Source of the DNA: a virus
IMG/VR virus record: IMGVR_UViG_3300044712_001688
Span: 1 to 41,919 of that record
Length of the DNA: 41,919 nucleotides
Direction: 5' to 3' (one strand)
The notes below the pieces were generated by a model. The model saw only the letters and a program-made list of their open reading frames with translations. It searched no databases and was not told where the DNA came from. Every line of letters begins with the position of its first letter. Within the stretch, counting starts at the first letter, position 1. Positions 1,357-31,100 of the stretch are shown here, in pieces. Made by a program: the position numbers and the translations under genes.

Positions 1357-3504
1357 ATGGCACGGTCATACAAAGATGTAGATAATAAAAGGCAGAAAGA
1401 GCTAAAAAGAATCAAAGATAATATACAGACTGGCTATGATTACTTTAGGAAGAATTACGAAAGATTCAATGCTTGCAAGCGCTTCGTACATGTTAGCTCC
1501 CTAGACGATACCGATGTAAAAATCCTAAGAAAGCTCAAAAAACCTGTAATAGAATTTAATATTCTCGAAGCATATGTATCGCGTCTAAGAGGCGAATTTA
1601 GCAAACAAGAACCATCATTTGATGTAAAAGGCGAATATGGCTCTAAAGTTGATCAATCAGTCCTTGAAATGATCGAAGGCCATTTAAGGCATATAGAGTC
1701 TCAGGCTAAGAACGATAATGTAGCTTGGGAAGTCTATACCGACCTCTTGACCGGCGGATTTAGCGTAATGGAAGTAACCACCGATTATCTAAACGATAAA
1801 TCTATGCAACAAATCATAAAAAACAATCGAGCATATGATCCTTGCATGTGTGGTTTTGACCCATTGGCACGTTTCTCACACAAGGGAGATGGTCGATATT
1901 GTTTCAAGATTGTACCAAAAAGCAAGCAAGATATGGAGCAAGAATATCCGGAATTAAGCTTGGATGATCTGAAATTCAACCATTCTTCCCCTTTTGGGAA
2001 GAAAGGTGGGGCAGAAATAGGTAGTTTTAACTGGTCATATAAAGCGCAAGAAGAAGAAATACTTTTATTAGTTGAATATTACGAGAAAAAGAACAAAAGC
2101 AAGAAATTATGTAAATTATCTGATGGACAAACGATGTATAAGGATGAATATGAAAAAATGATGCAAGATAGCCAGGTAGCTGGAAGCTTATTGCAACCTC
2201 CCATTATAGTTGAAGAAAGGGAGACAAAAGTAACCACTATCTGCCGATATAAAATCATTGAATCGGAGGTAATTGAATATGTTGAAACAGATTTTGCTTA
2301 TTTCCCTCTTGTCTTTATCGATGGCAATTCCGTCATCTGTCGCGAATCAGAGAATGGTCAAGTACAACAAGTTTGCCGACCATATATCTACCACGCAATG
2401 GGTGTGCAACGACTTAAGAACTTTGCCGGCCAGACTTTAGCCAACGAACTAGAGAACATGGTACAGCACAAATATAAAGTTCCTAAGGAAGGCATCCCTG
2501 ATGCTTATAAAGAACAGTATCGCGATGTACAGCAATCAACTCTCTTGATCTACAATCAGTATAAAAATGATGATCCTAATGTACCTTTGAACCCGCCACA
2601 AGAAATTGCTAGAGTTCCTGCTCCCCCAGAAGTATCAACAGCATTTAGCGTGGCTGATCAAACATCTCAGATGATTTTAGGATCATATGATGCAAGTTTG
2701 GGGATCAATGATAATCAGCTCTCTGGGGTTGCCGTTGTTGAGGCAGCAACCCAATCCAATGCTGCTGCTATGCCGTATGTTGTAGGTTACATGAATGGCT
2801 ATAGCCGTGTCGCCCAGATAAACTTAGATCTAATTCCAAAGTATTGGACTGATGAAAGAATTGTTCCAGGTATAGATAAGGCAGGCAAAGGACAGAATTA
2901 TAACTTCCATCCGGATATGATTAAGAATGTTAAACTTAACGTTACTGTATCAGCCGGAGTAAGCTTTGCTGTACAAAAACATCGTGCATTACAACAAATC
3001 TTAGCCTTAGGTCAAACATTTCCATTGCTTCAACAGATGCTACAAACTGAGCCAGAATGCCTAAATGTTATCCTAGATAACGTTGAAATGCGTGGTATTG
3101 ATAGGTTCAAAGATATAGCCGATCGCTTTGCACAGAAATTAATGATGGCTCAACAACAGAAACAACCTAGCCCAGAAATGCTAGAACTACAACGCAAGAT
3201 GAAGAAAGATGAAGTTGATAGTGAACTAGGTTCTGCCAAAGTTATGCTGGAGGCTGAGAAGATAGCTAACACCGCTCGTGAGCTTAAACTCAAAGAAAAA
3301 GAAGTTCATGCTAACATGGAAGTACAACTAGATAAGCACCAGTCTGAGAACTTACGAAGTGCAGTTAATATGGCTGTTGAAGTCCAAAAAATGGAGCATC
3401 AGCACTTTGTCGACCATCATGATGTTGCACTCAAACATAAAGATCACGAACTTAAGAGATATATCGCTACCAAACCGCAACCTGTACAGAAGAAAATAAA
3501 ATAA
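1357..3504 (+). CDS. Portal protein (P22 gp1-like)
   Basis: This 715-residue protein has the size and composition of P22-type portals, the dodecameric ring through which DNA enters and leaves the head. The C-terminal 130 residues are glutamine- and charge-rich helix, like the barrel region of P22 gp1. I start it at the ATG at 1357 because AGGAGC lies 7 bases upstream; an in-frame TTG at 1324 is less likely. It ends one base before the last base of the terminase stop on the other strand (3505). It lies where P22 has its portal, between terL and scaffold, but points the other way and so needs its own promoter. Confidence 0.85.
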   Translation: MARSYKDVDNKRQKELKRIKDNIQTGYDYFRKNYERFNACKRFVHVSSLDDTDVKILRKLKKPVIEFNILEAYVSRLRGEFSKQEPSFDVKGEYGSKVDQSVLEMIEGHLRHIESQAKNDNVAWEVYTDLLTGGFSVMEVTTDYLNDKSMQQIIKNNRAYDPCMCGFDPLARFSHKGDGRYCFKIVPKSKQDMEQEYPELSLDDLKFNHSSPFGKKGGAEIGSFNWSYKAQEEEILLLVEYYEKKNKSKKLCKLSDGQTMYKDEYEKMMQDSQVAGSLLQPPIIVEERETKVTTICRYKIIESEVIEYVETDFAYFPLVFIDGNSVICRESENGQVQQVCRPYIYHAMGVQRLKNFAGQTLANELENMVQHKYKVPKEGIPDAYKEQYRDVQQSTLLIYNQYKNDDPNVPLNPPQEIARVPAPPEVSTAFSVADQTSQMILGSYDASLGINDNQLSGVAVVEAATQSNAAAMPYVVGYMNGYSRVAQINLDLIPKYWTDERIVPGIDKAGKGQNYNFHPDMIKNVKLNVTVSAGVSFAVQKHRALQQILALGQTFPLLQQMLQTEPECLNVILDNVEMRGIDRFKDIADRFAQKLMMAQQQKQPSPEMLELQRKMKKDEVDSELGSAKVMLEAEKIANTARELKLKEKEVHANMEVQLDKHQSENLRSAVNMAVEVQKMEHQHFVDHHDVALKHKDHELKRYIATKPQPVQKKIK

Positions 3505-9870: not shown

Positions 9871-9880
9871 ATTCCCTTTA

Positions 9881-9957
9881 GAGGCCCGGCGCCTCTTTAC
9901 CAGGGTTGGTTTCCTCTTCAGGATAGTCAACAACCTCCAATAATAATCAACCCTGGT
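9881..9957 (+). terminator. Two stem-loops after the lipoprotein gene
   Basis: AGAGGC/GCCTCT forms a short hairpin at 9880-9896. Then a perfect 10-bp inverted repeat, ACCAGGGTTG (9899-9908) and CAACCCTGGT (9948-9957), encloses 39 bases and is followed by a T-rich run (GATTGTTTTATTTT). It could terminate or attenuate the early transcript ahead of the first phased array. The long loop is unusual for a simple terminator. Confidence 0.5.
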
Positions 9958-9974
9958 GATTGTTTTATTTTGAA

Positions 9975-10041
9975 GTCGTGTTGAGTAATGCAATGTAAAG
10001 TTAGGTAATGCAATGTAAAGTTAGGTACCGTAAGGTAAGGT
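9975..10041 (+). repeat. 5-nt phased GT array 1
   Basis: A G falls at every fifth base from 9975 to 10040, 14 times without a break. Twelve are followed by T and two (9990, 10010) by C. A 20-base unit, TAATGCAATGTAAAGTTAGG, occurs twice in tandem (9986-10005 and 10006-10025). The three bases between vary. Stops occur in all frames, so it is not coding. It ends 30 bases before the next ATG. Confidence 0.85.
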
Positions 10042-10070
10042 TAATTTAATAATAAAATGAGGATAAAATA

Positions 10071-10319
10071 ATGAAGAATGAGTTTTTAGTAACAATAGAT
10101 TTACGAAAAGCAAACAGAGCAGGTATGGCCGAACTAATTAGAAAGAGAAGCGTTCTGATAAGAAAACTTTCTGATAATCATACTTACAAAGAATTGATGG
10201 AAATGTTTGGGATTGGATATGCGCTTATAGCGAAATCCATAACAAGCGTTAATAATGCAAACAAAGCAAAGAAAGTAAATAAAGTACAGAAAGTAAAGAA
10301 GACTAATAAGAAGAAATAA
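10071..10319 (+). CDS. Small DNA-binding protein with lysine-rich tail
   Basis: This 82-residue protein has a likely helix-turn-helix at residues about 38-58 (YKELMEMFGIGYALIAKSIT), typical of small phage regulators. The last 20 residues are a basic tail with repeated NKV/QKV/KK units. AGGAT precedes the ATG. It lies directly after array 1, so it could regulate early genes or bind these arrays; both are inference. Confidence 0.6.
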   Translation: MKNEFLVTIDLRKANRAGMAELIRKRSVLIRKLSDNHTYKELMEMFGIGYALIAKSITSVNNANKAKKVNKVQKVKKTNKKK

Positions 10320-10320
10320 C

Positions 10321-10446
10321 ATGTTATCACATATTACAAATATATTTGATCTTTTTACCTTGGCGTTGTTCCTAGGGATGGGAGCTTTCGTGCTCTTATC
10401 CCTAACATGGTTAGGCATTTTAAGATTGATAAGGAGAAAAATATGA
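10321..10446 (+). CDS. 41-residue membrane protein
   Basis: The frame begins one base after the previous stop and ends in an ATGA overlap with the next start. Residues about 10-35 are one hydrophobic helix, followed by the basic end LRLIRRKI, so a single membrane pass with the C-terminus inside is likely. It has no ribosome site of its own apart from coupling. Function unknown. Confidence 0.5.
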   Translation: MLSHITNIFDLFTLALFLGMGAFVLLSLTWLGILRLIRRKI

Positions 10447-10661
10447 GCATTATCTTCAGAATCAGAAAAATAGAATTTGATATAATCCAATGGGAAAAAG
10501 GAGAATGCAGTAAATGCAATAATTATGCAACATCGAATAGCTGTGAAGTTGAGTTAGACCCATTAAAAAAAATTATTTACATTGATGGATTAGAATTATC
10601 TGAACCTGCATTCAACGCGATATCAAAATTATTAGATATTTCATTTAAAACAAATAACTAG
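10443..10661 (+). CDS. Hypothetical protein with three cysteines, 72 residues
   Basis: I use the ATG at 10443, with AAGGAG 7 bases upstream and an ATGA overlap, rather than the in-frame ATG at 10407. It has CSKC and a third cysteine (residues about 22-35), too few for a standard ribbon alone. The rest looks like a mixed strand and helix fold. Function unknown. Confidence 0.55.
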   Translation: MSIIFRIRKIEFDIIQWEKGECSKCNNYATSNSCEVELDPLKKIIYIDGLELSEPAFNAISKLLDISFKTNN

Positions 10662-10669
10662 GAAAATTT

Positions 10670-10912
10670 ATGAACCATCAGAAAGACAACAGAATGTGCG
10701 CAGGTTCTGGGCTTGATATTTGTGATTTACACAATGGCGATAAGGGCGAGCCTTTAGCTACTCCAATAGGCAGTTACAACCCTAATGGCAGTACTCCAAA
10801 TGCTGAGAGGCAATATGCAAAAGCTATCATAATGTTTTGCAACCATTTGCAAAAACCAGCAGAAGAATTAAAACCAGAGGTTAAACCAGTAGCTTTAGTA
10901 TCAAAATTATAA
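10670..10912 (+). CDS. Hypothetical protein, 80 residues
   Basis: A soluble protein with a glycine, asparagine and proline-rich first half and a helical second half ending in a proline-lysine-valine stretch. CTAGGA precedes the ATG. It ends just before array 2. No family is recognised. Confidence 0.55.
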   Translation: MNHQKDNRMCAGSGLDICDLHNGDKGEPLATPIGSYNPNGSTPNAERQYAKAIIMFCNHLQKPAEELKPEVKPVALVSKL

Positions 10913-10918
10913 AATGCA

Positions 10919-10970
10919 GTGAAGTCGCGTGATGCAAGGCTGAGTAACGTCATGTGAAGTAAAGTAAAGT
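10919..10970 (+). repeat. 5-nt phased GT array 2
   Basis: Eleven consecutive steps of five bases, each with a G (10919 to 10969). Nine are followed by T and two (10934, 10939) by C. AAAGT and GAAGT are the commonest units near the end. It begins just after one stop codon and ends 23 bases before the ATG of the RAMP-like gene. Confidence 0.85.
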
Positions 10971-10993
10971 TTATTAACCAAACAGAGGATAAA

Positions 10994-11575
10994 ATGAGGA
11001 TAGTAGCAACCATAGAGGGTGTAACCCCTCTTCTAATGCATAAGTTCAATCCAAGCGCATTAAATCAAAATGTTACAAAGAGCAAAAATATCACGCCAGA
11101 AGAGATAGCAGAAGAAGCTGCTTATCGTGATAAAGATGGTAATCTTATAATTCCAGGTAATAATATCTTTCAGACCATCATTAACGGCGGTAAATTTGTT
11201 AAAGATGGCAAGAGTAAAATAACTAATTCCAAATCCTCAAGAATTCCCGCTGCTGGCAATATTGTTGAGCTAGAGTTGCTATTAAATCAAGATCACTATG
11301 AGATTTTTTCAACTAGCGCTGTAAACAATGCGATTAAGGCTAGAGTCATGACCCATCGTCCAATGTTCAAAGAATGGGAGTTGACTTTTACGCTTGAAAT
11401 GGATGATAAGATTCTTAGTGCTGAGCAGATATATGAATGTTTAAAGTTTGGCGGCACTAGTATTGGCTTGGGAGCCTTTTCACCAAGATGCAAAGGCACC
11501 TTTGGCAAGTTCAAAGTTAAAAGCTTTTTAGTAGATGGTGTTGTACCTAGAATCAAAGATCTAATTAAAAAATAA
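10994..11575 (+). CDS. RAMP/Cas7-like phage protein
   Basis: This 193-residue protein starts with a strand and loop, IEGVTPLLMHKF (residues 7-18). It has a conserved-looking RPMFKEWELTF (122-132) and ends with the glycine-rich stretch GGTSIGLGAFSPRCKGTFGK (153-172). A glycine-rich loop near the C-terminus is a hallmark of RAMP-fold RNA-binding proteins of CRISPR systems, and the 'SPLLMHR' start recurs in uncharacterised phage proteins I have seen. No cas neighbours or CRISPR array exist here. It is flanked by phased arrays on both sides. The fold assignment is tentative and comes only from motif reading. Confidence 0.5.
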   Translation: MRIVATIEGVTPLLMHKFNPSALNQNVTKSKNITPEEIAEEAAYRDKDGNLIIPGNNIFQTIINGGKFVKDGKSKITNSKSSRIPAAGNIVELELLLNQDHYEIFSTSAVNNAIKARVMTHRPMFKEWELTFTLEMDDKILSAEQIYECLKFGGTSIGLGAFSPRCKGTFGKFKVKSFLVDGVVPRIKDLIKK

Positions 11576-11661
11576 GATTTTGGTAATGCAGTTTGGTAAC
11601 GCATTGTGGAGTAAAGTATCGTTTTGTTAAGTAAAGTATAGATCTAATTAAAAAATAAGAT
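11557..11661 (+). repeat. Duplicated gene end (22-bp direct repeat 83 bp apart)
   Basis: AGATCTAATTAAAAAATAAG plus two bases occurs at 11557-11578, spanning the stop of the RAMP-like gene, and again at 11640-11661 in noncoding DNA. Each copy is followed by a phased array. An 83-bp tandem duplication of gene end plus array is the simplest explanation, with the array parts since diverged. Confidence 0.8.
11583..11637 (+). repeat. 5-nt phased GT array 3
   Basis: Two steps (11583, 11588), then a phase shift of 3 bases, then ten unbroken 5-base steps from 11591 to 11636. Nine of these ten are GT and one is GC (11601). It lies just after the RAMP-like gene, in the first copy of the duplicated segment. 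Confidence 0.8.
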
Positions 11662-11664
11662 CAA

Positions 11665-11711
11665 GTAATGTTGGGTAAAGCAGCGCAATGTGAAGTAAAG
11701 TAAAGTGAGGC
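11665..11711 (+). repeat. 5-nt phased GT array 4
   Basis: Ten unbroken 5-base steps from 11665 to 11710, seven GT and three GC. The last unit is only 4 bases ahead of the ATG at 11715, so the array occupies the ribosome-binding region of that gene. Confidence 0.8.
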
Positions 11712-11714
11712 AAT

Positions 11715-12047
11715 ATGATAAAAGATACAAAGCTTAAAAAAGCCTTAGAGCTTAATAAAGCTAGAAAAGATACAGTAAAAGAAATAAGAAAAGATTTAAA
11801 GAAAATTTCACATAAATATTTAAATAATTGGCAAAATAAAGATATCAGTCCTGAACTATTTGTGCAAACAATGCTTGAGCATGTGGCTATTGATGCAACA
11901 GCTTTATTTTTTCAATTTAATAAACTTTCTCCATGCACATTTAGAGAGAAAATTAAGTTATTATTTAAGGGGTTCGAACATAAATCTTACAGATCTTACA
12001 AGCTAGTTTGGAAAAAGTTTGCAAAAGACCCAGCAGTAGAACTCTAA
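11715..12047 (+). CDS. Hypothetical basic protein, 110 residues
   Basis: A lysine-rich, helical N-terminal half followed by a mixed hydrophobic segment with aromatic residues. Its start follows array 4 with only GTGAGG as a possible ribosome site, so translation may depend on the array. It is the last gene of this plus-strand operon. No family is recognised. Confidence 0.6.
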   Translation: MIKDTKLKKALELNKARKDTVKEIRKDLKKISHKYLNNWQNKDISPELFVQTMLEHVAIDATALFFQFNKLSPCTFREKIKLLFKGFEHKSYRSYKLVWKKFAKDPAVEL

Positions 12048-12054
12048 CGAATAG

Positions 12055-12125
12055 AAGCGTGGCGAGTCCTTGTGCCAAACCTGGCTTCCTGGCCTCATAC
12101 AATCGGCACTCCTCGCCACGCTTCT
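12055..12125. terminator. 13-bp stem-loop with inner stem between convergent genes
   Basis: GAAGCGTGGCGAG (12055-12067) pairs perfectly with 12113-12125. Inside, GTGCC (12073-12077) pairs with GGCAC (12106-12110) around 28 bases. The stem is much richer in G and C than its surroundings. It lies right after the stop at 12047, so it probably terminates the early plus transcript and may stop minus-strand RNA too. The large branched loop also fits a stable small RNA. Confidence 0.65.
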
Positions 12126-12190
12126 TAATATACGCTTAAACTTTTCAATTTCCAGAATATTTTATGCAAAAATAAATTTATTTAATGAAG

Positions 12191-12242
12191 GTGAAGTTAT
12201 GTTGTGCCAGGTTACGTAAGGTAAAGTATAGTGAAGTAAAGG
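12191..12242 (+). repeat. 5-nt phased GT array 5
   Basis: Ten unbroken GT or GC steps of 5 bases from 12191 to 12236 (one GC at 12206), and a further in-phase G at 12241. Unlike the others it has no plus-strand gene directly downstream, and it lies after the stem-loop terminator. Confidence 0.8.
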
Positions 12243-15080: not shown

Positions 15081-15114
15081 AAACAAAAAGAGCCCCGTAA
15101 AGAGCTCTTTGTTT
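15081..15114 (+). terminator. Hairpin after the first gene of the operon
   Basis: AAAGAGC (15087-15093) pairs with GCTCTTT (15104-15110), and flanking AAAC/GTTT can extend the stem. Only short T runs follow. It begins two bases after a stop codon and lies between two genes of one operon, so it probably lessens rather than ends transcription into the recombination gene. Confidence 0.6.
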
Positions 15115-15135
15115 ACAACCTATAAAAGGAAAAAC

Positions 15136-15987
15136 ATGAAAACTAATCTTACCGCAGCTGATAGCGCAAATCAAGCACAAGATGAAATTGATATAATTTC
15201 TAAAATCATTCTTAAAAATGATCTTTCAGGTTTAACACCAACTCAACAAGTACAATATTATCATAAGTTCTGTGAATCATTAGGGCTAAATCCATTGACC
15301 CAACCATTTCACCTTCTTAAGTTTAATGGGAAGATAGTTTTATACGCCGCTAAAGATGCTACAGAGCAACTTCGCAAGATACATGGCGTTAGCGTCATGG
15401 AATTAGAGAAAGTCTTTCAGAACGATTTATACATCGTTACAGCTAAAGTTCAGGATAAAGCTGGAAGATATGATGCTTCTACAGGAGTCGTTTCAATTAA
15501 GGGTTTATATGGCGATAACTTAGCTAATGCAATTATGAAAGCAGAAACCAAGGCCAAAAGACGAGCTACACTTTCTATCTGTGGTTTAGGTATGCTAGAT
15601 GAATCGGAAATTGAAACTGTTGGGCCATATCAGAAAATAGATGTTAAAACTGGAGAGGTAATTGAAACCAAAGGAGAAGCTATTCAACATCAGCAACCAA
15701 AAATTAAACAAACTGAAAAAAACGAACAAACAGAATCTACATCATCAGGTGATTTTATAATGCCTATTGGTAGAAACAAAGGTCGTAAAATTTGTGAACT
15801 AGATGATAAAGATTTACAAAAAACAGTTGAATGGTGCAGAGAAAAAGAAAAGTTTCCCAATATTATTGAGGCAATAGAAAGATATCTTTTTGAGAAAGAT
15901 GTTGGGTTTCAAGCAAGTCCACCAACCTCAGATTTTAATGAAGAGCAGTTAGAGTTTATTAAACAAATGGAGGATATACCACAATGA
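15136..15987 (+). CDS. Single-strand annealing type recombination protein with ExoX-like C-terminal domain
   Basis: AAGGAA precedes the ATG at 15136; the product has 283 residues. Residues about 33-155 include GLNPLTQPFHLLKFNGK and MKAETKAKRRATLSICGLG, hallmarks of a phage family usually annotated as recombination (RecT/Erf/Rad52-type) proteins, which pair complementary single strands during replication and repair. Residues about 207-252 (IMPIGRNKGRKICELDDKDL) resemble the small ExoX C-terminal/DUF3820 domain. The tail is acidic. The exact family is uncertain, but the recombination role is likely. RusA could resolve its products. Confidence 0.7.
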   Translation: MKTNLTAADSANQAQDEIDIISKIILKNDLSGLTPTQQVQYYHKFCESLGLNPLTQPFHLLKFNGKIVLYAAKDATEQLRKIHGVSVMELEKVFQNDLYIVTAKVQDKAGRYDASTGVVSIKGLYGDNLANAIMKAETKAKRRATLSICGLGMLDESEIETVGPYQKIDVKTGEVIETKGEAIQHQQPKIKQTEKNEQTESTSSGDFIMPIGRNKGRKICELDDKDLQKTVEWCREKEKFPNIIEAIERYLFEKDVGFQASPPTSDFNEEQLEFIKQMEDIPQ

Positions 15988-20013: not shown

Positions 20014-23000
20014 TTAAGCAATTGTAAATGTTGCTACACCATTGCCATTATCATTTGGGATAAAAACAATTATTGATATTGATCCCACGCATGTACTCGT
20101 TCCATTTTTAGACGATACAGCTATTGCTACGGCATTAGTATGTGCCGATACCGTAAGCTGCGGTGCATTGTCTTCCCTTGTCTCATCTAGTTTTACAGCA
20201 GTAGGAGCGCCATTTGCATATTTAAAAGCCCAACGCGCTACAAGAACGCCGGAATCACTTATTGCTGTTGTAGTATAAGCGCTGACTCTAGCCTCAATAT
20301 ATCCAGAGACATATAAATTCGTTACAGTCGAGGGAGTTATTTCGTACATCGTAAAAAATGAACTAACACCTGAGAATGATTTAAAAGCCTCCCACGTAAA
20401 TTTTCTATTGCTAACATTATAGGTTTCTTGTGTATATACTGGTGCTGTTACATGAACTACAGGAGCTATGTGGCAATCACTCTGTTGATAATTCCCAGTT
20501 CCAGCTGTGCCAATACGCATTACATTGCTTTCGCTGGCAACTCCAACATTACTAATATAAACATTTGATGCCTCGGCCCCCGTATGATTATTCCCAGATC
20601 CAACACCCACATAAAGATTATAACTACCAGTGCTAAGTAAGCCGCCTGCACATCCTAAAAATAAATTATTATTACCAGTAGTAACCGCTGATCCTGCGTC
20701 AGCCGATGCAAATCCTATATTTCCCTCTCCTGAAGTTAAACTTCTTAATGCTCCATCTCCAAAACCCCAATTAGAAGCTCCAGTTAAAGTTGTATTTCCT
20801 GCAGTAGCACCAAAGAAATAGTTTTTAGTTCCAAAGCCATTTGCAGGGAAATGCATTATCTTTACGTTATTTACTTTAACTTGCCCAACTGTTGCTGTAG
20901 TAGTTGGCAGATTTAAATTGTCTTGCCCTACTACTGGGAGAGAGGTTGAGAAACTAGGAACACCACTCCCATTTGTGACTAATATCGCATTGTTAACACT
21001 ACTGATAAATGAAGTTGTATTTGCCCCTGTTTGATAAGGGACCTGATTTGCACCGCCTCCCGCTATGTTTGTAGCCTTTGCTGCAGTACCAGTTGTATCT
21101 TGATTCCATGTTGGAGCAGTACCAGCATTGCTATAATCACTAGCCATAATGGTTTTGCTAGTGGTTGGGAACGTCATTGTAGTGCTATCAGTTCCAGCCA
21201 AAGTAATAGAATTAGATACCGATAATGTTTTGCCAGTCGTAACAGATAATCCCGTTACTGTAGCTGCGTTTCCAGTACAAGAACCAGAACTACCACTCAC
21301 ATTACCAGTTACATTGCCGGTTACATTGCCAGACAATGGGCCTGAAAATCCAGTGGCTGTTAATATACCAGTATTAGGGACAAAAGATAATTTAGTACTA
21401 CTCACATAAGTCGCAATGTTTCCAGTATTAGCCGTATGCCATGCTGGGTAAACACTCGATGCATTAGTTGTATCATTAGTTACAGTTACATTAGAGGCAT
21501 AAGTAGCTGAACCAGCATTACCGGTACAAGTACCAGAAGACCCAGATACATTACCCGTAACATTCCCAGTGAGATTTACTGACAAGGATGTAATAGAGCC
21601 AGAGCCTGCATTTAAAGCTACTTGTGTGGTACCAATATACAGAGAACTATTACCTAAAATAGTACTAGGAATAGTTGATATTTCTTCAGTTGATCCTGCT
21701 CCAGCGCTACTTCTACCTAGCAATCTATTTGTAGCTGTTATATCTTGAATCTTTGCATATGTTACTTTTTTTGCACCTATGGTAGTAACGCCCGTGTTAT
21801 CGTTTGTTACATCACCGCTTAAAGTCACAGCAGTAGCTATATTAGAAGCATTGCCAACAAACACTTGTCCACTTGGTAAAGCACTAGGCAATGTTGTAGT
21901 AATATCTAAACCAGGAGTTGTTTGCGTAGCCCTCCAATCAATAAAATTAGCACCTGTATCGGTTGTTCTTATTCTTGCTTTAACAGCATTGCCATACGAG
22001 CTTGATGTTTCAAAAATAAATGTAGCCAGAGCTTTAAATTCTGGGAGGGGTAGTTGTCCAATTAAAGTATTAATTTCAACAACTGCTCCTGCTCTTGCTA
22101 ATGCTAATGTCGCATAATTAGCCTGGCCCATTACAGAAATACAAGTATTAACTGGGTCATTTGTAGCAAAAATGTGGTATAAGACATAATCAAGATTGCC
22201 AACCTCTGTCTGTCCCCATACACCTGCTCCACCCGCATTTATATCATTATAAGCCAACCTACCGCTTCCTGTTGTTAGAACTGAATATCCAGCGTTAACG
22301 GTTCTTCTTAAATTTCTTCCAGAACCACTATTCCAATATATGGGAAGACCTGTAGCCGCTGCGATTGAAGATATAGAATGTTGCAAGTCTTCATCTTGTA
22401 CAATGCCTGCGTCCATACCAAATTGAGCTGAAGCGTTTACATTTCCACTTCCATCTGCACTAATAGTATTTGGAGCAAGACCAGACAACCATTGAGTACG
22501 CTTATACAAATGCTCATAAACATGAGTCTGGCCATCCATTTGAATACCATGCTGCTCTACTCCACTAAGAATAGCTGCCGCATTCGTAGCATCCCAATAG
22601 ATATATCTAACCAATACCCAGTCCCTAACTAACACATATATTTGTGCTGAAGTAGGATTTACTAATTCTTGTAATGTTCCAGTATTATCATAATAAATAA
22701 AATGGTTACCTTCGGTATTTGCTATGACGATACTTTGCGCAGTCTTAGAATATTTTTTACCATCATAGAAAATCTCAAAAGTTGAACCTGTAGGGGTAAT
22801 GGTAAAAGTTCTCGTCCCATTAACAAAAGAGCCCGTTGCATCAGTTTGTAAATTCGTAAAGCCAGTAGGCTCATGCGTAGCTGTATAGATATAATCTATA
22901 TTCTTCAATGCATCGGTAACATGCGTAGTCAATATTACATTGCTACCAGTCAAATCAGTTAAGTAAGTATCTTTAAAGGTAGGATTTGCAGTACTGTCTA

Positions 23001-25221
23001 TATTCTGAGGAGCTGAAATAGTTATATTTGATGCAACAGAATTACTATTAGCACTAACATTGACTTGGTTTGTTGTTCCAGAAATAGAGCCAGTTAACGA
23101 AGCTTGATAAGTTCCGGTATCTAAGCCAAATGTTCCTGCTGCTGTCATCTTAACAAAAGAGGTCGAAGCATAAGTAAGACCTGCCAAGCTTGTTAAGTTT
23201 GTGCTTAATGGCTGCCCACCCAACCCTGCAAGAGTATATGTAGGAATGTTTAAAGTGTTGCTAGCAAATGTAGCTGATCCACTAGAACCTGTGGTTGTAA
23301 AAGTAGCTATTCTGCTTGAATAGGCAGTGTTCCAATTGGTCTCTTCAGTTGTAGTCGGTATCACATATCCAGTGGTTAAGCTAAATACTCCCGTAGCAGA
23401 AGTATATGTTAAGCCTGTAGCAGATGAGCTAATAGCAGCTCTAGCACGAGCATCTGTATAATACAAATTTGTGTTCTCAGGAACGGCTTTAGTATCTAAG
23501 GTTTGCCAGGACTTATCACCGCGCCAATACTGTAAGCTAGTTCCAGTTGAAATCGCTGGCTCTTTATTATTGAACGTTGTCCAATCAGTCGAACTCAGAT
23601 AGCCATTAGTAGATCCCGAGGATTGTGTAATAGATGCTGTCCCAGAACTATATTGCAATGGAGCTGACCAAGTTGTGACTTTTTTACTATTGGCATCGTT
23701 CCAATTGGTTTGATCTGTAGTTGATGGGACATAATAACCAGTAGTCAAGCTAACATTATGAGCAGAAAAAGTTAAATGTGTTGGCCAATTAGAAACTGAT
23801 TCAGTAAAAGCCAAATCCCAATTAGCTTGATCCACTATTGTTGGGATATAAGCCTGAGTTATGACTGGAGATGCAATCAAACAGCATTCCCCATCTACAG
23901 TATATGAACTTGAACAAAAATAAGTTAATTGATATCCCCAATAAAATTGAGCAGAAGGAAAGCCTGCCATATCAAAATTAGATGGGTTTTCTGCTTGAGC
24001 AGCCGCAATAGTGCTAAATTGATTTCTACCAGGAATAAAATAAAATGAAGTAGGAGTGTAAATAATATACCAATTACAATAATACCCATATGAAACTACG
24101 TCCATTGAACCATTATGGTCATACATAATGGTAGTAGTTCCTGGATGCTGAGATTGGACCAAATAAGGATGTGGACCAAGCCCAGTGCTCCATACTCCTA
24201 CACTATCTCTTACTGCAACATTATAAATAAAAGAAGGATAGGTTACGGGCATAATAAGTGCTGACAACGAAAACGGAGTAGTAACCGCACTAATGCCAAA
24301 ACAATTATTTAACTCTGTACTTGGTGGAGCCGGATTAATCGTTTGATTATTAATTACACCGCCTTCAATTTTTGCCGGAACATAATATCCAGGAGTTAAA
24401 CTTAATATATGATTGATAGGATTAAAGGTTAAAAATGTAGGCCATCCAGCTACACTTTCGCTATATGCTAAATTCCAATTACTTTGATCAGTAGTTGATG
24501 GAATATAATAGCCAGTAGTGAGAGACAATACCCCAGTGGTATATGTTAAAAACGTAGGCCATGTACTTACTTCTTTGCTATATGCATCGTTCCAATTAGA
24601 CTCTTGAGTGGTAGTCGGAATTACATACCCAGTAGTCAAAGAAAAAACGCCAGTAGTATTTGTATAAGTTAACCCAGTTGCTGAAGAACTAATGGCAGCC
24701 CTAGAACGCGTATCAGTATAGTATAGATTCGTATTTTCAGGAACTACACTTGTGTCTAGAGTTTGCCAGGTTTTATCTCCACGCCAATATTGCAATGCAG
24801 TACCAGCAATAATAGCTGGCTCCTTATTGTTAAATATTGACCAATCAGTTGCTTTTAAATAACCATCTGTTATCGCATCTGCAGCAGGAAGAGAAAAGTT
24901 GCCAGTTTCCGGATCATAAACTAGTGGGAAGGAAGCACTCAAACCAGCGTCAGTTAATAATTTATGATATTCCCAATCTGTCCCATGCAAAAAATTAACC
25001 ATAAGATCATTATTGGTACTATCGTATAATAATGATCCTCCAGATTGAGCCGTATTAAGGAGCTCTATAGTTTTTGCATCTTTTTGAGATATAAAAACCC
25101 CTTCTTCTTTAAAATTAGTTTGAAGGACTTGATATGTCTCCATAAGAATCTGACGCCAAGTGTCAGTTAAATAACCATTGGCGTCAGTGAATTTCTCATC
25201 TATAAAATTAGGAAATTTCAT
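20014..25221 (-). CDS. Giant tail fibre protein (1735 residues)
   Basis: The longest gene. The N-terminal 100 residues are unique, beginning MKFPNFIDEKF. Residues about 120-620 repeat a unit around TTGYYIPSTTDQSNWN and WPTFLTY, at least five times. Later come copies of LTGNVTGNVSGSSGTCTGNA (twice). Near 1500-1590 there are GN-x-N-x-x-x-G-x-x-A-G repeats as in hep/Hag-like or fibre trimer domains. Overall it is a long beta-structured shaft with mixed host-contact domains. Confidence 0.8.
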   Translation of the reverse strand: MKFPNFIDEKFTDANGYLTDTWRQILMETYQVLQTNFKEEGVFISQKDAKTIELLNTAQSGGSLLYDSTNNDLMVNFLHGTDWEYHKLLTDAGLSASFPLVYDPETGNFSLPAADAITDGYLKATDWSIFNNKEPAIIAGTALQYWRGDKTWQTLDTSVVPENTNLYYTDTRSRAAISSSATGLTYTNTTGVFSLTTGYVIPTTTQESNWNDAYSKEVSTWPTFLTYTTGVLSLTTGYYIPSTTDQSNWNLAYSESVAGWPTFLTFNPINHILSLTPGYYVPAKIEGGVINNQTINPAPPSTELNNCFGISAVTTPFSLSALIMPVTYPSFIYNVAVRDSVGVWSTGLGPHPYLVQSQHPGTTTIMYDHNGSMDVVSYGYYCNWYIIYTPTSFYFIPGRNQFSTIAAAQAENPSNFDMAGFPSAQFYWGYQLTYFCSSSYTVDGECCLIASPVITQAYIPTIVDQANWDLAFTESVSNWPTHLTFSAHNVSLTTGYYVPSTTDQTNWNDANSKKVTTWSAPLQYSSGTASITQSSGSTNGYLSSTDWTTFNNKEPAISTGTSLQYWRGDKSWQTLDTKAVPENTNLYYTDARARAAISSSATGLTYTSATGVFSLTTGYVIPTTTEETNWNTAYSSRIATFTTTGSSGSATFASNTLNIPTYTLAGLGGQPLSTNLTSLAGLTYASTSFVKMTAAGTFGLDTGTYQASLTGSISGTTNQVNVSANSNSVASNITISAPQNIDSTANPTFKDTYLTDLTGSNVILTTHVTDALKNIDYIYTATHEPTGFTNLQTDATGSFVNGTRTFTITPTGSTFEIFYDGKKYSKTAQSIVIANTEGNHFIYYDNTGTLQELVNPTSAQIYVLVRDWVLVRYIYWDATNAAAILSGVEQHGIQMDGQTHVYEHLYKRTQWLSGLAPNTISADGSGNVNASAQFGMDAGIVQDEDLQHSISSIAAATGLPIYWNSGSGRNLRRTVNAGYSVLTTGSGRLAYNDINAGGAGVWGQTEVGNLDYVLYHIFATNDPVNTCISVMGQANYATLALARAGAVVEINTLIGQLPLPEFKALATFIFETSSSYGNAVKARIRTTDTGANFIDWRATQTTPGLDITTTLPSALPSGQVFVGNASNIATAVTLSGDVTNDNTGVTTIGAKKVTYAKIQDITATNRLLGRSSAGAGSTEEISTIPSTILGNSSLYIGTTQVALNAGSGSITSLSVNLTGNVTGNVSGSSGTCTGNAGSATYASNVTVTNDTTNASSVYPAWHTANTGNIATYVSSTKLSFVPNTGILTATGFSGPLSGNVTGNVTGNVSGSSGSCTGNAATVTGLSVTTGKTLSVSNSITLAGTDSTTMTFPTTSKTIMASDYSNAGTAPTWNQDTTGTAAKATNIAGGGANQVPYQTGANTTSFISSVNNAILVTNGSGVPSFSTSLPVVGQDNLNLPTTTATVGQVKVNNVKIMHFPANGFGTKNYFFGATAGNTTLTGASNWGFGDGALRSLTSGEGNIGFASADAGSAVTTGNNNLFLGCAGGLLSTGSYNLYVGVGSGNNHTGAEASNVYISNVGVASESNVMRIGTAGTGNYQQSDCHIAPVVHVTAPVYTQETYNVSNRKFTWEAFKSFSGVSSFFTMYEITPSTVTNLYVSGYIEARVSAYTTTAISDSGVLVARWAFKYANGAPTAVKLDETREDNAPQLTVSAHTNAVAIAVSSKNGTSTCVGSISIIVFIPNDNGNGVATFTIA

Positions 25222-25233
25222 TATATTATTTGC

Positions 25234-28134
25234 CTATATATACCATCCTGCATTAGCTCCACTAGTATCGCGAAGGAATAAATCTACATGAGAAGTAGAA
25301 GTCAACTGTATTGCTGTATCTGCAGCTCCCATTAATTTTTCACCAAAATTAGACCAAACAAAAAGATCTAATCCTGAATAGTTATAGATTCTAATCATGC
25401 GTCCTTTGGCTCCTATTGGGGTTGTCCCATTAAGATATTGAGGAAGCATCACGGAATCATTAGTATGAGCTGCTGTAGTAATAACATGTATAGTTGAGAA
25501 CTCATCTAATAGATGAGCATCAGTCTGTAAAGGACCATCCCCAGCAACAATATTATCTGAAATAGATGTGGCTATATTTTTAATAGTCATTATTCCATCA
25601 TTTCTAATGGAGAATGAATCTAGACTTAATAAACCAAATGGAGTTGTACTATAATCTGTTGCAGAAGCTTGACTAACAACGTACGCAGTCAAAACATTTG
25701 GTTTATCTACGCCAGTGTTTCTTGTTAGGACAAGTCCGCTAGCAGTAGTTCCATCGCTTCTAAAAGTAAAGGCATCATGAGCTGGATTGTAAACTCCATT
25801 AAATACCCATACTGGAACTGTTTGTGTCCCCATGCCATAGGCTACAACTGGGAACAAAGCATCTGATTCTCTTGATAATTCACTTATACAAGAACTATAA
25901 GTTCCAACGGAATTTGGATTACCAAAACATGCATTGTATGAATTTGTTTTAGAATAGTATGTATAACTATCCGAAACTACATCATATTGCGATTTTAGAT
26001 TTGTTCTATAGTAATCATTGGCTGGGCTAAAGTTAGTAGTATGAAGCACTTCATTATCAATAGCTAAATTCATCATGTAAAAGTCTGACGTTACTGGATA
26101 TGTGCTTTCATAATAACTCATACCAATTAACAATTCAGCGCATGTATTAGTTCTTGTTCCAGTTTGCGTTTTTGTAGCGCCTTTCTGCAAACCATTAAGG
26201 AACAATCTTGTTGCCCCCGTGGTAATGTCAATATCAACTTCAATATTATAAGGCAGCAACAATCTAGGAGACCATGCACCAAAGTCTTCAGCAGTAAGAA
26301 TGCCAGTTCCAGTACTACTGTAAACACTCAAATATAATTTTCCATCTATATTATGAGATAGCTCAATCATATTCACAAGTGATGTATCTGCAACACGGAG
26401 ACAAACCATAGACATATAATTAGATGGAGTTCCTTCATAGTTTGGAATGTAAACAAAACTTATCGTACCTTTTTGAGTAAAGTTAGCATTTCCAGTAGCG
26501 CTCCATTGTATGCATTTCTTGGCAGAACCAGTCAAATCAGCACGACCATTTGCAATGGTTGCACTATTTCTAAGAGTTCCTGTGGCAGTACCAATAGAAT
26601 AATCAGCATCTGCGCTAGAATCTAAATAAGCAAAAAATGTTGGAGAATTATTTTCAACAAATAGTGGCAATGTATATAGGTTGGTTGCCGTAATCGTTTG
26701 GTCTGCAGTTGCGCTAGTTTTTAAATATGCATAATCATACGTACCGCCCATAGACCCAAGAAGTACATGGCCAGTTACGGTGCTTGAATCTGCGTTATAT
26801 CTGAACGTATAACTATTCGACCCAGGAACATATATGCCATTGTATAATAAAGATTGAGCAGGAGCATCAGTTATAGGACTTTGTACAAGCACTAATTCAG
26901 CATTATCTGTACTCTCTCCAATTCTATAAGAATATCCAGCGACTACAGCCCAGGAAGCATCATCTGGAGTAAGGGCGCCAGCAGCATAATTCCAGTAACC
27001 AGTTCCAGGAGTACTATGAGTATCTACATAATTCTTCGTAGCGATCTGCATTGGAGTAGTAGGATCAACTGACAAAGTACCTTGATGAACAGTAATGTTA
27101 CCAGTTGTTAAAATATTCCAAGTCGTATCATTTGGATAAAGAGTGTTTCCTACTCTAGTCCAGTAACCTGAAGCAACGCTGCCATCTACATATGCTTTAG
27201 TTGCAATATCAGTTGGGTTTACAACAGCACCCGTAATAGTACCTTGAACAGCTCCAAGACGACCAGTGGTAACAACATTCCAGGTAGAGGTAACTGGATT
27301 TAAAGTAACCCCCCCAGACAGTGTCCAGTAGTTTGAACCACTACCATGGGCATCAACATAAGCTTTATTAGCACCGTCAGTTGGGTTGGTTGGATCGTTA
27401 CTTATGGTAATATCAGGAGTAGTAATACGAGTGGTTACATTTAGATTGGCTCCAAAATAAGCATCTTTCTCAACACCTAATCCACCAGCAGTTACGAAAG
27501 AGCCGGTAGTTGCAGAAGTACTTTGTGTAGCATCAGTAGTTACAACAGTTCCGGTCATTTGAGGCAATGCCTTTCCCCAGGACGGGATGCTGTTACCATC
27601 AGTAATTAATATGCTACTTGCGGCAGAAGTTATTCCTTGCACTAAATTATTAGAAGTGGAATAAAGTATTTGATTGGCTACAGTTGTCGAAGGATATTGG
27701 GCAGTAGACCAAAAAGGAACATCACTCAATCCTGACATTAGTAATCTATTGGTTTCATCGGTCGAGGCTAGCACTGCCATCGTGGTATTGGTGCTATAAA
27801 TAATACCACCAAGATTCGGAGTTAATGCCGCACCTGTTCCACCCAGTGCCATACTAAATGGAGTGTCTAAAATACTGCTATCAATCTTTCCACCAGCAGT
27901 AATTTTAAATAAGAACATACCAGTGCGAATGAAGTTACCGCCACCAGCAGAAGGGGCAATAATATTACGCCCATCTGGAGTTAATAATGAATTAGGATCA
28001 TACTCAAATGTCCCTTGATCTGCGGTTACAAAAAATGTGCCTGCAACTGTGTTAGTAGCATCAACAGCTGCCAAAGCTGTTAAGTCTGCAACAGGTCGGT
28101 GCATGTAATATAGTTCTACGTTTTTATCAGCCAT
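25234..28134 (-). CDS. Tail fibre with LamG-like domain (966 residues)
   Basis: Starts MADKNVELYYMHRPV, identical to its upstream neighbour, and shares the first 230 residues in outline (GGTGA, YSTN and TGSFVTAGGLGV units). Residues about 290-400 repeat 'PT-x-IATKAYVD' phrases. A LamG/concanavalin-like domain lies at about residues 496-675, with GTISFVYIPNY and LFLNG. Such domains bind sugars or proteins, so a role in receptor recognition is likely. The C-terminus is a small beta knob ending GWYI. Confidence 0.8.
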   Translation of the reverse strand: MADKNVELYYMHRPVADLTALAAVDATNTVAGTFFVTADQGTFEYDPNSLLTPDGRNIIAPSAGGGNFIRTGMFLFKITAGGKIDSSILDTPFSMALGGTGAALTPNLGGIIYSTNTTMAVLASTDETNRLLMSGLSDVPFWSTAQYPSTTVANQILYSTSNNLVQGITSAASSILITDGNSIPSWGKALPQMTGTVVTTDATQSTSATTGSFVTAGGLGVEKDAYFGANLNVTTRITTPDITISNDPTNPTDGANKAYVDAHGSGSNYWTLSGGVTLNPVTSTWNVVTTGRLGAVQGTITGAVVNPTDIATKAYVDGSVASGYWTRVGNTLYPNDTTWNILTTGNITVHQGTLSVDPTTPMQIATKNYVDTHSTPGTGYWNYAAGALTPDDASWAVVAGYSYRIGESTDNAELVLVQSPITDAPAQSLLYNGIYVPGSNSYTFRYNADSSTVTGHVLLGSMGGTYDYAYLKTSATADQTITATNLYTLPLFVENNSPTFFAYLDSSADADYSIGTATGTLRNSATIANGRADLTGSAKKCIQWSATGNANFTQKGTISFVYIPNYEGTPSNYMSMVCLRVADTSLVNMIELSHNIDGKLYLSVYSSTGTGILTAEDFGAWSPRLLLPYNIEVDIDITTGATRLFLNGLQKGATKTQTGTRTNTCAELLIGMSYYESTYPVTSDFYMMNLAIDNEVLHTTNFSPANDYYRTNLKSQYDVVSDSYTYYSKTNSYNACFGNPNSVGTYSSCISELSRESDALFPVVAYGMGTQTVPVWVFNGVYNPAHDAFTFRSDGTTASGLVLTRNTGVDKPNVLTAYVVSQASATDYSTTPFGLLSLDSFSIRNDGIMTIKNIATSISDNIVAGDGPLQTDAHLLDEFSTIHVITTAAHTNDSVMLPQYLNGTTPIGAKGRMIRIYNYSGLDLFVWSNFGEKLMGAADTAIQLTSTSHVDLFLRDTSGANAGWYI
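28100..28134. repeat. 35-bp direct repeat at the start of the 966-residue fibre gene
   Basis: Bases 28100-28134 are identical to 32239-32273. Both are the first 35 bases of adjacent fibre genes. Homologous exchange between them would delete or replace the larger fibre. Confidence 0.9.
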
Positions 28135-28154
28135 AATATTTTCCTATAATTAAG

Positions 28155-31100
28155 TTAAATTCTAAACCAGTGCCCAGTTGTAGCACAGACAAAAGTAGCG
28201 CTTTGCCCGATTACATCTAAAAGTACGAATGTATTTAATACATTATCTATATATTCACCAACGACTGGATAAATTTTAAAATAATATCCAGGGCTTGTAA
28301 GCATATTTTTTACAACAATTGTTTGCCCAGGAACTAATGCCTGAGGAAGTTTTACAGCACCATTATCACCAACAACTATGTTATATTGCGCTCTTAACGG
28401 AAATGCGTCTGATTGATCGGTTCCAGATGGGTGAGCATTGCCATCAACTGACCCCCCAATAGATGCATTAAAAAGATATGTATTGGTATTAGTATCATAT
28501 TGAGTAATCAAGTTAGAATGTAATTGTGGACTCTCAGAAGTACCATAATCTGCCGTATGCAATACCTTGTTGTAAACCTGCAAATCTTTCAAATAAAAGT
28601 TATTACGATAAGGTGTTGGAGCAGATAATATCTGATTCATGATATGGAAATTTTTGTATTTGGCATCTGCATGATATGGAGCAAGATCTGTGTTCTTGCC
28701 AATTACTAAAATTTCCGCTGTATCAGTTCTTGTCCCCGTTTCAACAAGAGTGCTACCTTGCTGAACGTTATTTATAAATAATTTCGTTGCCCCAGCGTAT
28801 ATATCTATTTCCAATTTGAATATATATCTTGTAGCAGGAGTAGGGTTCCATGCTCCCAAATCAGCTGAATTTATTATTGGGTTTGAGTCTGAACCATAAA
28901 CAAAGAGATATAAGTGGCCATCACTTTGTTGATGTCTTAATTCGATATAGTTTTCATCTGAAGAATAGTCCTTAGAAATGCCAAATATACTGAAATCAGT
29001 AGTTTCTGGAGCATCTGTATAGTTTGGATATAATTCAAATATGATTGTTCCCAGCTGAGTGAAATTCGCATTATCAATAGCTGAATAACTAACATATCTA
29101 TTATCATCGTGAGCTAAATCTAAGAAACCACTAGAAATTGCTGCTCCATCATGTGGTGTACCGAAATTATCTCCAATAGAAAAATCTGCATTTAATGATG
29201 TGTCGTAAGATGCGTAGAAAGTTAATCCAGGGATTGGGAATGGATAAGCATAGTTACCTACATAAGCAATTCCGGGTGACGTTCTTGTGCAGGTTCCGGT
29301 CTCGGTAGTCCCCTGCTGCTCCCCATCGATAAATAATCTATGAGCATTATTTACCATATCGATATTTAATTCGACATCATAAAATCTTGCCTGAGAAGCG
29401 TCCCAATTACCAAATGACAAATGCAATTTTTTATTGCCTGCCCAATCAAATACATCAAGAAAGAACTCCGAAAAACTACCATTTTTAACACTATAAAATG
29501 CTAAACCACTACGCCCAGGAATTGTCATTTCGCTATTATCATAACTATAGAAATAACATTGAGGGTCTTCAGGAACTACGGTAGTAGTCCAATTTGGGAA
29601 CAAACTAAACTTGATTGTACCTTGGGTTAAAAAATCAGCGTTGAGATAAGCTGCATAAGATACATTTCTATAATCATTATGAGCTAAGTCCAATCTTCCA
29701 TTCACAACAGAAGCATCGCCATAAGAAACCCCTGCAGGACTGTTTAAATAATAATTTGCATCAATACTGCTGTCATAACTGCAGAAAAAAGTACACCCAT
29801 CAGGAACCTGAAAGCCAGCGTATAAATCTTTAGCAAAAACACTATTATAATTAGCTATAGATGACGAAGAATATGAATATTCATATTTCTTGCCATTAGA
29901 GAATAAAGTTACATATCCTCTAGCAACACCAAAAAAATCAGTCTTAAATATATAAGAGGATGTCAAATTATCATAATAACCATTTAATATTAATGCTGAT
30001 GCAGGATAAGAAATGCCGTCCGGACTAGTTACCTGCGTTGAAAGACTTGCAGTAGCAATTCCGCTTATTGTATCACCAACTAAAACATTACTATTCAATG
30101 TTGCGGCATGAAACACATATCTGTCTGGATAAATCTGATATTCAAGTTTTTTATATGAAGTTTGTAATGTATATCCAGGCGTATAATTAGCTGTATGCAT
30201 TACTTGGCTAAATGCAACAAAATTTCTTATATAAAAATTGGACTCTAATATATCTTGAGCCGTGACCAAACTTCCAATAAATAAGGAATTTACTTGCGTT
30301 CTTGTCCCAGTTCCAATCATATCTGGTCCAAACTTATGGCCATCAATAAATAATCTACTAACTCCGGCATTTAAATCAATGTTAAGTTCAAATTCATATA
30401 GTTGCCTTAAATGTGGATGCCAACCCCCAAGGTTTTGCTGCATAATATAATTGCCAGCATTATCAACCATAATGACATGTAAATCCCCTTGAGCATCATG
30501 AGTTATATAAATTGCATTGCGAAGTGGACTTGCAGTAAATATCGAAAAGAAACAATAGAAATACCCGTATTCTTCGGGGGGTTTATATTCATAATTTGGA
30601 ACTATTTGGAATCTTATTGCACCCGTTTGAGTAAAGGTAATATTATTTGTGGCGTCATAAGATACCCAACGAATATCATTATGAGCCAAATCCAACATTT
30701 CATTCGCTATTGCAGCCCCACCAACAGCAATACCAGTTAATGTACCGGCTCCAAAGTTAGCATTAATACTAGAATTATAAGTAATATAAAATGTGGTATT
30801 TGGAAGTGGAATATAATCGTTGTATAAATGATCAGCAGAAATTGAAACATCTATTGCAGATTCAGTATTGTAAGCATAAGTATATAGATTACCCGCCGAA
30901 TTTACATCTACATTACCAACAGCATGACCATCTTCATTTGCTCGGAATGTATAAATATCACCAGTTGGATTATAAAGACCATTATGTATTACACCTTGAG
31001 CGTAATAACCTTCACCTAATGGGCTTAATACTGGGGTAAAAGTAATATTATTCTCTAATTCACCAACAACTAAGCTAGCCCCAACAGTAACCGACCACTC

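Follow-up and report, generated by a model that had tools for sequence, protein, structure and literature searches.

Organization of the locus

The window, that is, the whole 41,919-nucleotide stretch of viral DNA that was analysed (IMG/VR record IMGVR_UViG_3300044712_001688), carries on its plus strand five short arrays in which a G followed by T or C recurs every five bases. A script run over the whole window recovered five GT/GC runs with an exact lag of 5, comprising 14, 11, 10, 10 and 10 steps, at positions 9975-10041, 10919-10970, 11591-11637, 11665-11711 and 12191-12237, respectively. An earlier note on this DNA had claimed arrays at these five plus-strand places and extended the fifth to 12242; the run actually ends at 12237, as the base after the G at 12241 is another G and not a pyrimidine. 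Apart from these arrays, no lag-5 GY run of at least five steps was found on either strand of the window. The comparison with shuffled controls that the note had proposed was carried out on 200 Markov shuffles of the window, in which the longest lag-5 run was of 3-7 steps, so that the array lengths of 10-14 exceed the shuffle maximum of 7. Across the window, the lag-5 GY count was at expectation (400 observed vs. 392 expected); the signal is therefore limited to the five arrays and is neither genome-wide nor coding.

When written in the register x-G-Y-N-N, the arrays occupy 9974-10043 (array 1, 14 units), 10918-10972 (array 2, 11 units), 11590-11639 (array 3, 10 units), 11664-11713 (array 4, 10 units) and 12190-12239 (array 5, 10 units), all on the plus strand. 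GY is kept in 55/55 units of the five arrays, with Y being T in 46 of the 55, while the remaining bases drift, which bears out the proposal that constraint acts on the phase of GY and not on a fixed repeat. Array 2 lies directly 5' and array 3 directly 3' of a gene at 10994-11575 (plus strand), described below as vipr. Four arrays had been said to lie just upstream of start codons. This is correct for array 1, which precedes the start at 10071, for array 2, which precedes that at 10994, and for array 4, which abuts that at 11715 (distances of about 1-27 nt), and does not hold for the fourth case: array 3 is followed by array 4, and array 5 by no gene on the plus strand. The statement that stops occur in every frame applies to the three plus frames of arrays 1-4, whereas array 5 has one plus frame open, and a stop scan left several minus-strand frames open across the arrays. 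The claim that the arrays are noncoding was upheld.

Two small genes complete the locus, both on the plus strand. That at 10071-10319, between array 1 and vipr, encodes an 82-aa lysine-rich protein without a usable family match, a possible product of vap (see below); that at 11715-12047, between arrays 4 and 5, encodes a 110-aa basic protein without a family match and occupies a candidate vap position.

The product of 10994-11575 is related to Vipr

A CRISPR-like system with which phages silence genes, VIPR, was first reported in a bioRxiv preprint of April 2026 (PMC13142463); CRISPR RAMP systems are proposed to descend from it. Its protein Vipr, a small Cas7-like RAMP of about 20 kD with a single RRM and a glycine-rich loop, binds DNA by means of guide RNAs (vrRNAs) that consist of 9-16 GGY/NN pentamers; in the repeat, YNNGG, the NN bases recognise DNA and one base is skipped per unit, and the targets are competing mobile elements matched at NN with 1-nt skips (PMC13142463). 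As far as the main text of the preprint goes, there are seven types, and the consensus is GGY/NN "or a related consensus" (PMC13142463). In the locus of SUSP1, whose Vipr is the experimentally studied one and which belongs to type II, one array lies 5' and three lie 3' of vipr; each of these arrays is an RNA of its own, about 100 nt long, and is recovered together with purified Vipr. In type II, a conserved structured 3' tail follows the repeats and vap1 lies beside vipr (PMC13142463).

The 193-aa product of 10994-11575, encoded between arrays 2 and 3, matched phrog_4652 (E 6.6e-19), as SUSP1 Vipr also does (E 1.4e-96). By tblastn it is 26.9% identical to SUSP1 Vipr (E 1e-6), and PDB entry 36pp, "SUSP1 Vipr protein", was matched with E 1.3e-7 by the window protein alone and with E 6e-72 by the family profile, which includes the SUSP1 sequence itself. 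The top matches of an AlphaFold2 model of the protein (mean pLDDT 66, pTM 0.65) were Cas7-like chains, Csm3 among them, from type III, IV and VII complexes, with a Foldseek E of 8.8e-6 and a VIA-align Z of 10.4 against Csm3/Cas7. The reading frame is intact, and the RP/F/W and glycine-loop residues are conserved, the loop being GLGAFSP as compared to the consensus GxGDWRP. The protein departs from the family at the near-invariant sites R120T, D161A and R163S. The tree places it with L006-L010 (100/99 support); as its branch is long, its exact position among them is unsure. A small RAMP protein with a glycine-rich loop, a hallmark of VIPR, is present in the window, and on homology and predicted fold the product of 10994-11575 is a Vipr. 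The choice of this product as a protein to test, made in the earlier note, was therefore apt, and a Cas7-like filament protein as the partner of the arrays, also suggested there, is likely.

Duplications and flanks of the arrays

In array 1, 20 bp (4 units) are duplicated exactly and in phase. The two out-of-phase GY steps previously noticed near array 3 are real; they start at 11583 and 11588, within 11582-11589 (plus strand), and stem from a 13-nt duplication. A 22-nt direct repeat is present on the plus strand in two copies that are 100% identical, one at 11557-11578, which comprises the end of vipr and the leader of array 3, and the other at 11640-11661, in the leader of array 4. The NN bases of arrays 3 and 4 agree in at most 56% of cases at any shift. 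On these alignments, the pair reads as a duplicated array in which the guide has diverged and the flank has remained unchanged. The NN bases of the window arrays are A-rich, which would lower target specificity.

A long stem-loop lies 5' of array 1 (9897-9960, plus strand; 9875-9975 folds at z -3.7), and a 14-bp stem-loop, without a match in Rfam, separates the vipr operon from array 5 (12053-12125, plus strand; 12048-12135 folds at z -5.6, -38 kcal/mol). Both are putative terminators or processing sites. No structured 3' tail was detected when the arrays were folded with their flanks, which gave z -0.7 to 0.3, at shuffle level, as compared to z -1.9 for the SUSP1 control, and the window arrays have no SUSP1-like tail in common. 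The Rfam scan returned a single sub-threshold, biologically irrelevant match, and therefore no known ribozyme; promoter and terminator scans were at shuffle level. Neither a tandem-repeat scan of the window nor a direct-repeat scan of the locus revealed a CRISPR repeat-spacer array.

Arrays beside vipr in other phages

We fetched 76 viral loci encoding Vipr relatives, which together with four named-phage loci and the window gave 81 loci to scan; in some cases the same phage is represented more than once. In 56 of the 81 loci, arrays with a minimum of 8 units were found near vipr on the plus strand (137 arrays vs. 0.2 in shuffles); minus-strand matches were mainly the shadow of GC-rich arrays. 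Applied to the SUSP1 locus, the same script gave one array 5' and three 3' of vipr, matching the published layout. Additional arrays came from genome relatives, among which L083 has a 30-unit GGTNN array, and from phages LESphi2, LittleE, phiHSIC, UmaThurman and Ecliptus. In the relatives, arrays lie mostly 3' of vipr or in intergenic clusters. Their recurrence across distant loci indicates that the GY phase is conserved and that the remaining bases vary. The prediction of a fixed GY phase with changing N bases in related phages thus holds across very distant systems; close relatives of this particular phage were not found. A search of plasmids with the Vipr of L008 gave no match.

Some further features of these loci were observed. 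A hairpin resembling a tRNA T-arm, e.g. CAGGTTCGATTCCTG, lies about 30-100 nt after an array in several VIPR loci (L003 3635-3691, L004 2890-2951, L018 5046 and 5153, L026, L038, L088, L091, L203), and in L018 it is also enclosed by a 7-bp acceptor-like stem. Such hairpins occur in 11/148 array tails vs. 10/1900 control stretches, which suggests tRNA-like tails processed by RNase P/Z; the main text of the VIPR preprint (PMC13142463) does not mention them. The Gordonia phages UmaThurman (L205, 3088-3395) and Ecliptus (L206, 3058-3192) have back-to-back arrays of about 8-11 units each, with successive arrays shifted in phase, so that phase breaks mark array boundaries. Two arrays of L006 (4531-4612 and 4701-4772) have the 3' units and the start of the tail in common and differ in the 5' units, and represent another array duplication in which the guide changed. 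In phiHSIC (L204), unannotated vrRNA-like arrays at 3151-3187 and 3340-3391 lie over ORF21, 3' of the Vipr homolog ORF22.

The first base of the unit and residue 120 of Vipr

In most relatives the first base of the unit (x) is G. In the window it is A in 24, C in 7, G in 11 and T in 13 units, so that a full GGY occurs in 11/55, and x is indistinguishable from base composition (p 0.16). The entropy of x, 1.86 bits, is the highest of the 43 loci with at least 15 units (median 0.53), L008 being second with 1.55.

We scanned the window Vipr for departures from near-invariant residues of the family and noted residue 120, which is Thr also in L008 and Ser in SUSP1. This idea was recorded before phiHSIC, LESphi2, LittleE, UmaThurman and Ecliptus were fetched, and is partly post hoc overall. 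Of the phages fetched afterwards, phiHSIC has Lys at this position and a non-G x in 16/18 units, while LESphi2, LittleE, UmaThurman and Ecliptus have Arg and an x that is almost strictly G. Among the 42 Vipr clusters with arrays, residue 120 is Arg in 38 and Thr, Thr, Lys and Ser in the four others, two of which come from one clade. The mean fraction of non-G x was 0.63 in these four non-Arg clusters vs. 0.10 in the 38 Arg clusters, and column 120 ranked first of 152 testable columns for association with non-G x, with a nominal Mann-Whitney p of 0.0012, which becomes about 0.17 when corrected for the 152 columns. An exception is L077, which has Arg and yet a non-G x in 9/10 units of a single array at a contig end.

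On this covariation, the first G of GGY is most likely freed in the window because residue 120 is Thr and not the usual Arg, and residue 120 presumably contacts that base. A further-reaching idea, to which we give only a small chance, is that loss of Arg120 frees the first base of every unit and that this base then pairs with the skipped base of the target; if so, the interrupted NN code would become a contiguous code of three bases per unit.

Targets, accessory genes and the phage

Under the published skip rule, no targets above chance were found in the viral contigs and the window, which is a weak negative. The ten NN units of array 2, read with 1-nt skips, had one exact match, at L096 18-46, across a phage start codon; it was dismissed because unit 11 is mismatched and 0.2-1 such matches are expected by chance according to our estimate. 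The NN pattern of array 5 had no match in the viral contigs. Eight-unit seeds hit 36 and 69 contigs, in which both the extension of the match and the agreement at skipped bases were as expected by chance, and a seed from an L008 array hit 22 contigs, none of which extended. A contiguous NNx reading gave nothing significant by BLAST in phages. Within the phage's own 42 kb, self-targets were at shuffle level at skips 0-2, and the sole excess at skip 3 was each array matching itself.

The search for vap gave no family match for the window neighbours and no tblastn match for them in the VIPR loci; none of them matched phrog_5926, the family of SUSP1 vap1, and the neighbours tested gave no cas match. 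A 292-aa early protein (15109-15987) has a weak RecT-like signal (Pfam E 0.025) and is possibly a diverged annealing protein. Three very large proteins, of 1735, 966 and 1372 aa, are encoded at 20014-32273; those of 1735 and 966 aa had no Pfam match, that of 1735 aa had no PHROG match, and that of 1372 aa had no match by tblastn against phages. No match was found for the MCP of the phage, and its TerL is at most 35% identical to its best match, that of Pseudomonas phage MR14.

Proposed function of the arrays and alternative explanations

The analysis established a protein with Vipr homology and fold, co-oriented arrays on both sides of its gene, the same association in dozens of relatives, a constant GY phase amid drifting bases, and an array duplicated from 3 to 4 with an unchanged flank and altered guide bases. 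By sequence and by analogy with SUSP1, the five arrays are almost certainly the guide RNAs (vrRNAs) of a divergent VIPR system, and we consider it highly probable that the locus as a whole is a VIPR locus in which the first G has been freed, most likely by Thr at residue 120. The five arrays would be transcribed from the plus strand as vrRNAs, and Vipr subunits would line each of them, one per 5-nt unit, gripping the invariant GY and exposing the variable NN to DNA. Following the rule of the preprint, each unit would read two target bases with its NN and skip one, so that an array would specify about 20-28 bases, and the complex would keep a competing phage or prophage from being transcribed. 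We infer transcription, binding, DNA targeting and repression from the published work on SUSP1, and the guide function of the window arrays from homology. The earlier note knew of no described element of this kind; the arrays match the vrRNAs of VIPR (PMC13142463), and the drifting bases would be guide sequence. A guide RNA is more likely than the generic loading site for an annealing protein considered in that note.

The closeness of arrays 1, 2 and 4 to start codons (about 1-27 nt) would also be expected if the arrays, instead of being guides, were bound in mRNA leaders by Vipr, or by a TRAP-like ring protein, to regulate how vipr and its neighbours are translated. We hold this to be highly improbable: arrays 3 and 5 directly precede no gene, the arrays of the relatives lie mostly 3' of vipr or in intergenic clusters, the variable bases diverge between duplicated arrays, which a plain operator would not need, and in SUSP1 the arrays exist as individual RNAs, about 100 nt in length, which co-purify with Vipr (PMC13142463). 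That all this is functionless 5-nt slippage has next to no probability. Exact duplications exist (20 bp in phase in array 1, 13 nt at array 3), but beyond GY the units are unlike one another, and such arrays accompany vipr in dozens of unrelated phages and are absent from the rest of the window.

A VIPR in decay, with the degenerate first G and the A-rich NN resulting from lost constraint and not from a working variant, is improbable. The long branch of the protein and the changes R120T, D161A and R163S at near-invariant sites agree with decay, as does the fact that no vap, tail or target was found. Erosion would, however, hit GY too, which is kept in 55/55 units, and the vipr frame is intact with its RP/F/W and glycine-loop residues conserved; moreover, L008 and phiHSIC have the same relaxed first base.

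A working guide system with a freed first G remains our preferred reading. VIPR itself has been known since 2026; with respect to the main text of its description, the novelty of the present locus lies in a divergent copy whose first G is freed and in a candidate protein determinant, residue 120, of that freedom. The variant suggests that what the scaffold strictly requires is GY rather than GGY, and the covariation points to one position of Vipr from which guide reading might be learned; should the freed base take part in target reading, the guide code would have more flexibility than has been published. The analysis is also an independent recovery of VIPR from raw sequence, in a phage without a near relative in the annotated phage collection.

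Comparison with known systems

The array hallmark of VIPR, 5-nt units with GY on the coding strand flanking vipr, is found in the window in five arrays of 10-14 units. Like the window, SUSP1 (type II, Escherichia phage; L002/L039; PDB 36pp) has a phage-borne, homologous phrog_4652 Vipr and, on either side of its gene, coding-strand arrays of 9-16 GY units with a period of 5. The two differ in the first G, present in about 76% of SUSP1 units vs. 20% of window units, in residue 120, Ser in SUSP1 and Thr in the window, and in the vap (phrog_5926) and structured 3' tail of SUSP1, neither of which was seen in the window. Because it lacks the structured tail, the window VIPR is not filed as type II.

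The VIPR-like locus L008 (IMGVR_UViG_3300032069_000001) shares with the window the Vipr clade (100/99), Thr at residue 120 and the absence of a recognisable vap adjoining vipr. Its first base is A, G or T and never C, whereas the window has C; its arrays, one of 27 units, lie only 3' of vipr, and its glycine loop, GIGDWRP, is intact, as compared to GLGAFSP in the window. The ORF22 locus of Listonella phage phiHSIC (L204) also has a Vipr homolog and a free first base, but only about 18 units, with GC rather than GT, and has Lys at residue 120 with Ala replacing the next Arg.

The Cas7/Csm3 filaments of class 1 CRISPR have in common with the window the fold of the backbone subunit and regular steps along a guide RNA; the window has a 5-nt unit and, as predicted, interrupted pairing, without CRISPR repeats, spacers or cas genes. 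TRAP binds RNA sites with a period of about 5 nt and about 11 units, and needs NAG triplets, (G/U)AG spaced by 2-3 nt. TRAP-type sites were rejected for the arrays, as the base before GY is A in only 24/55 units. The parallel with TRAP drawn in the earlier note thus extends to period and unit number, whereas the invariant of the window arrays is GY and not NAG, and their putative partner is a RAMP.
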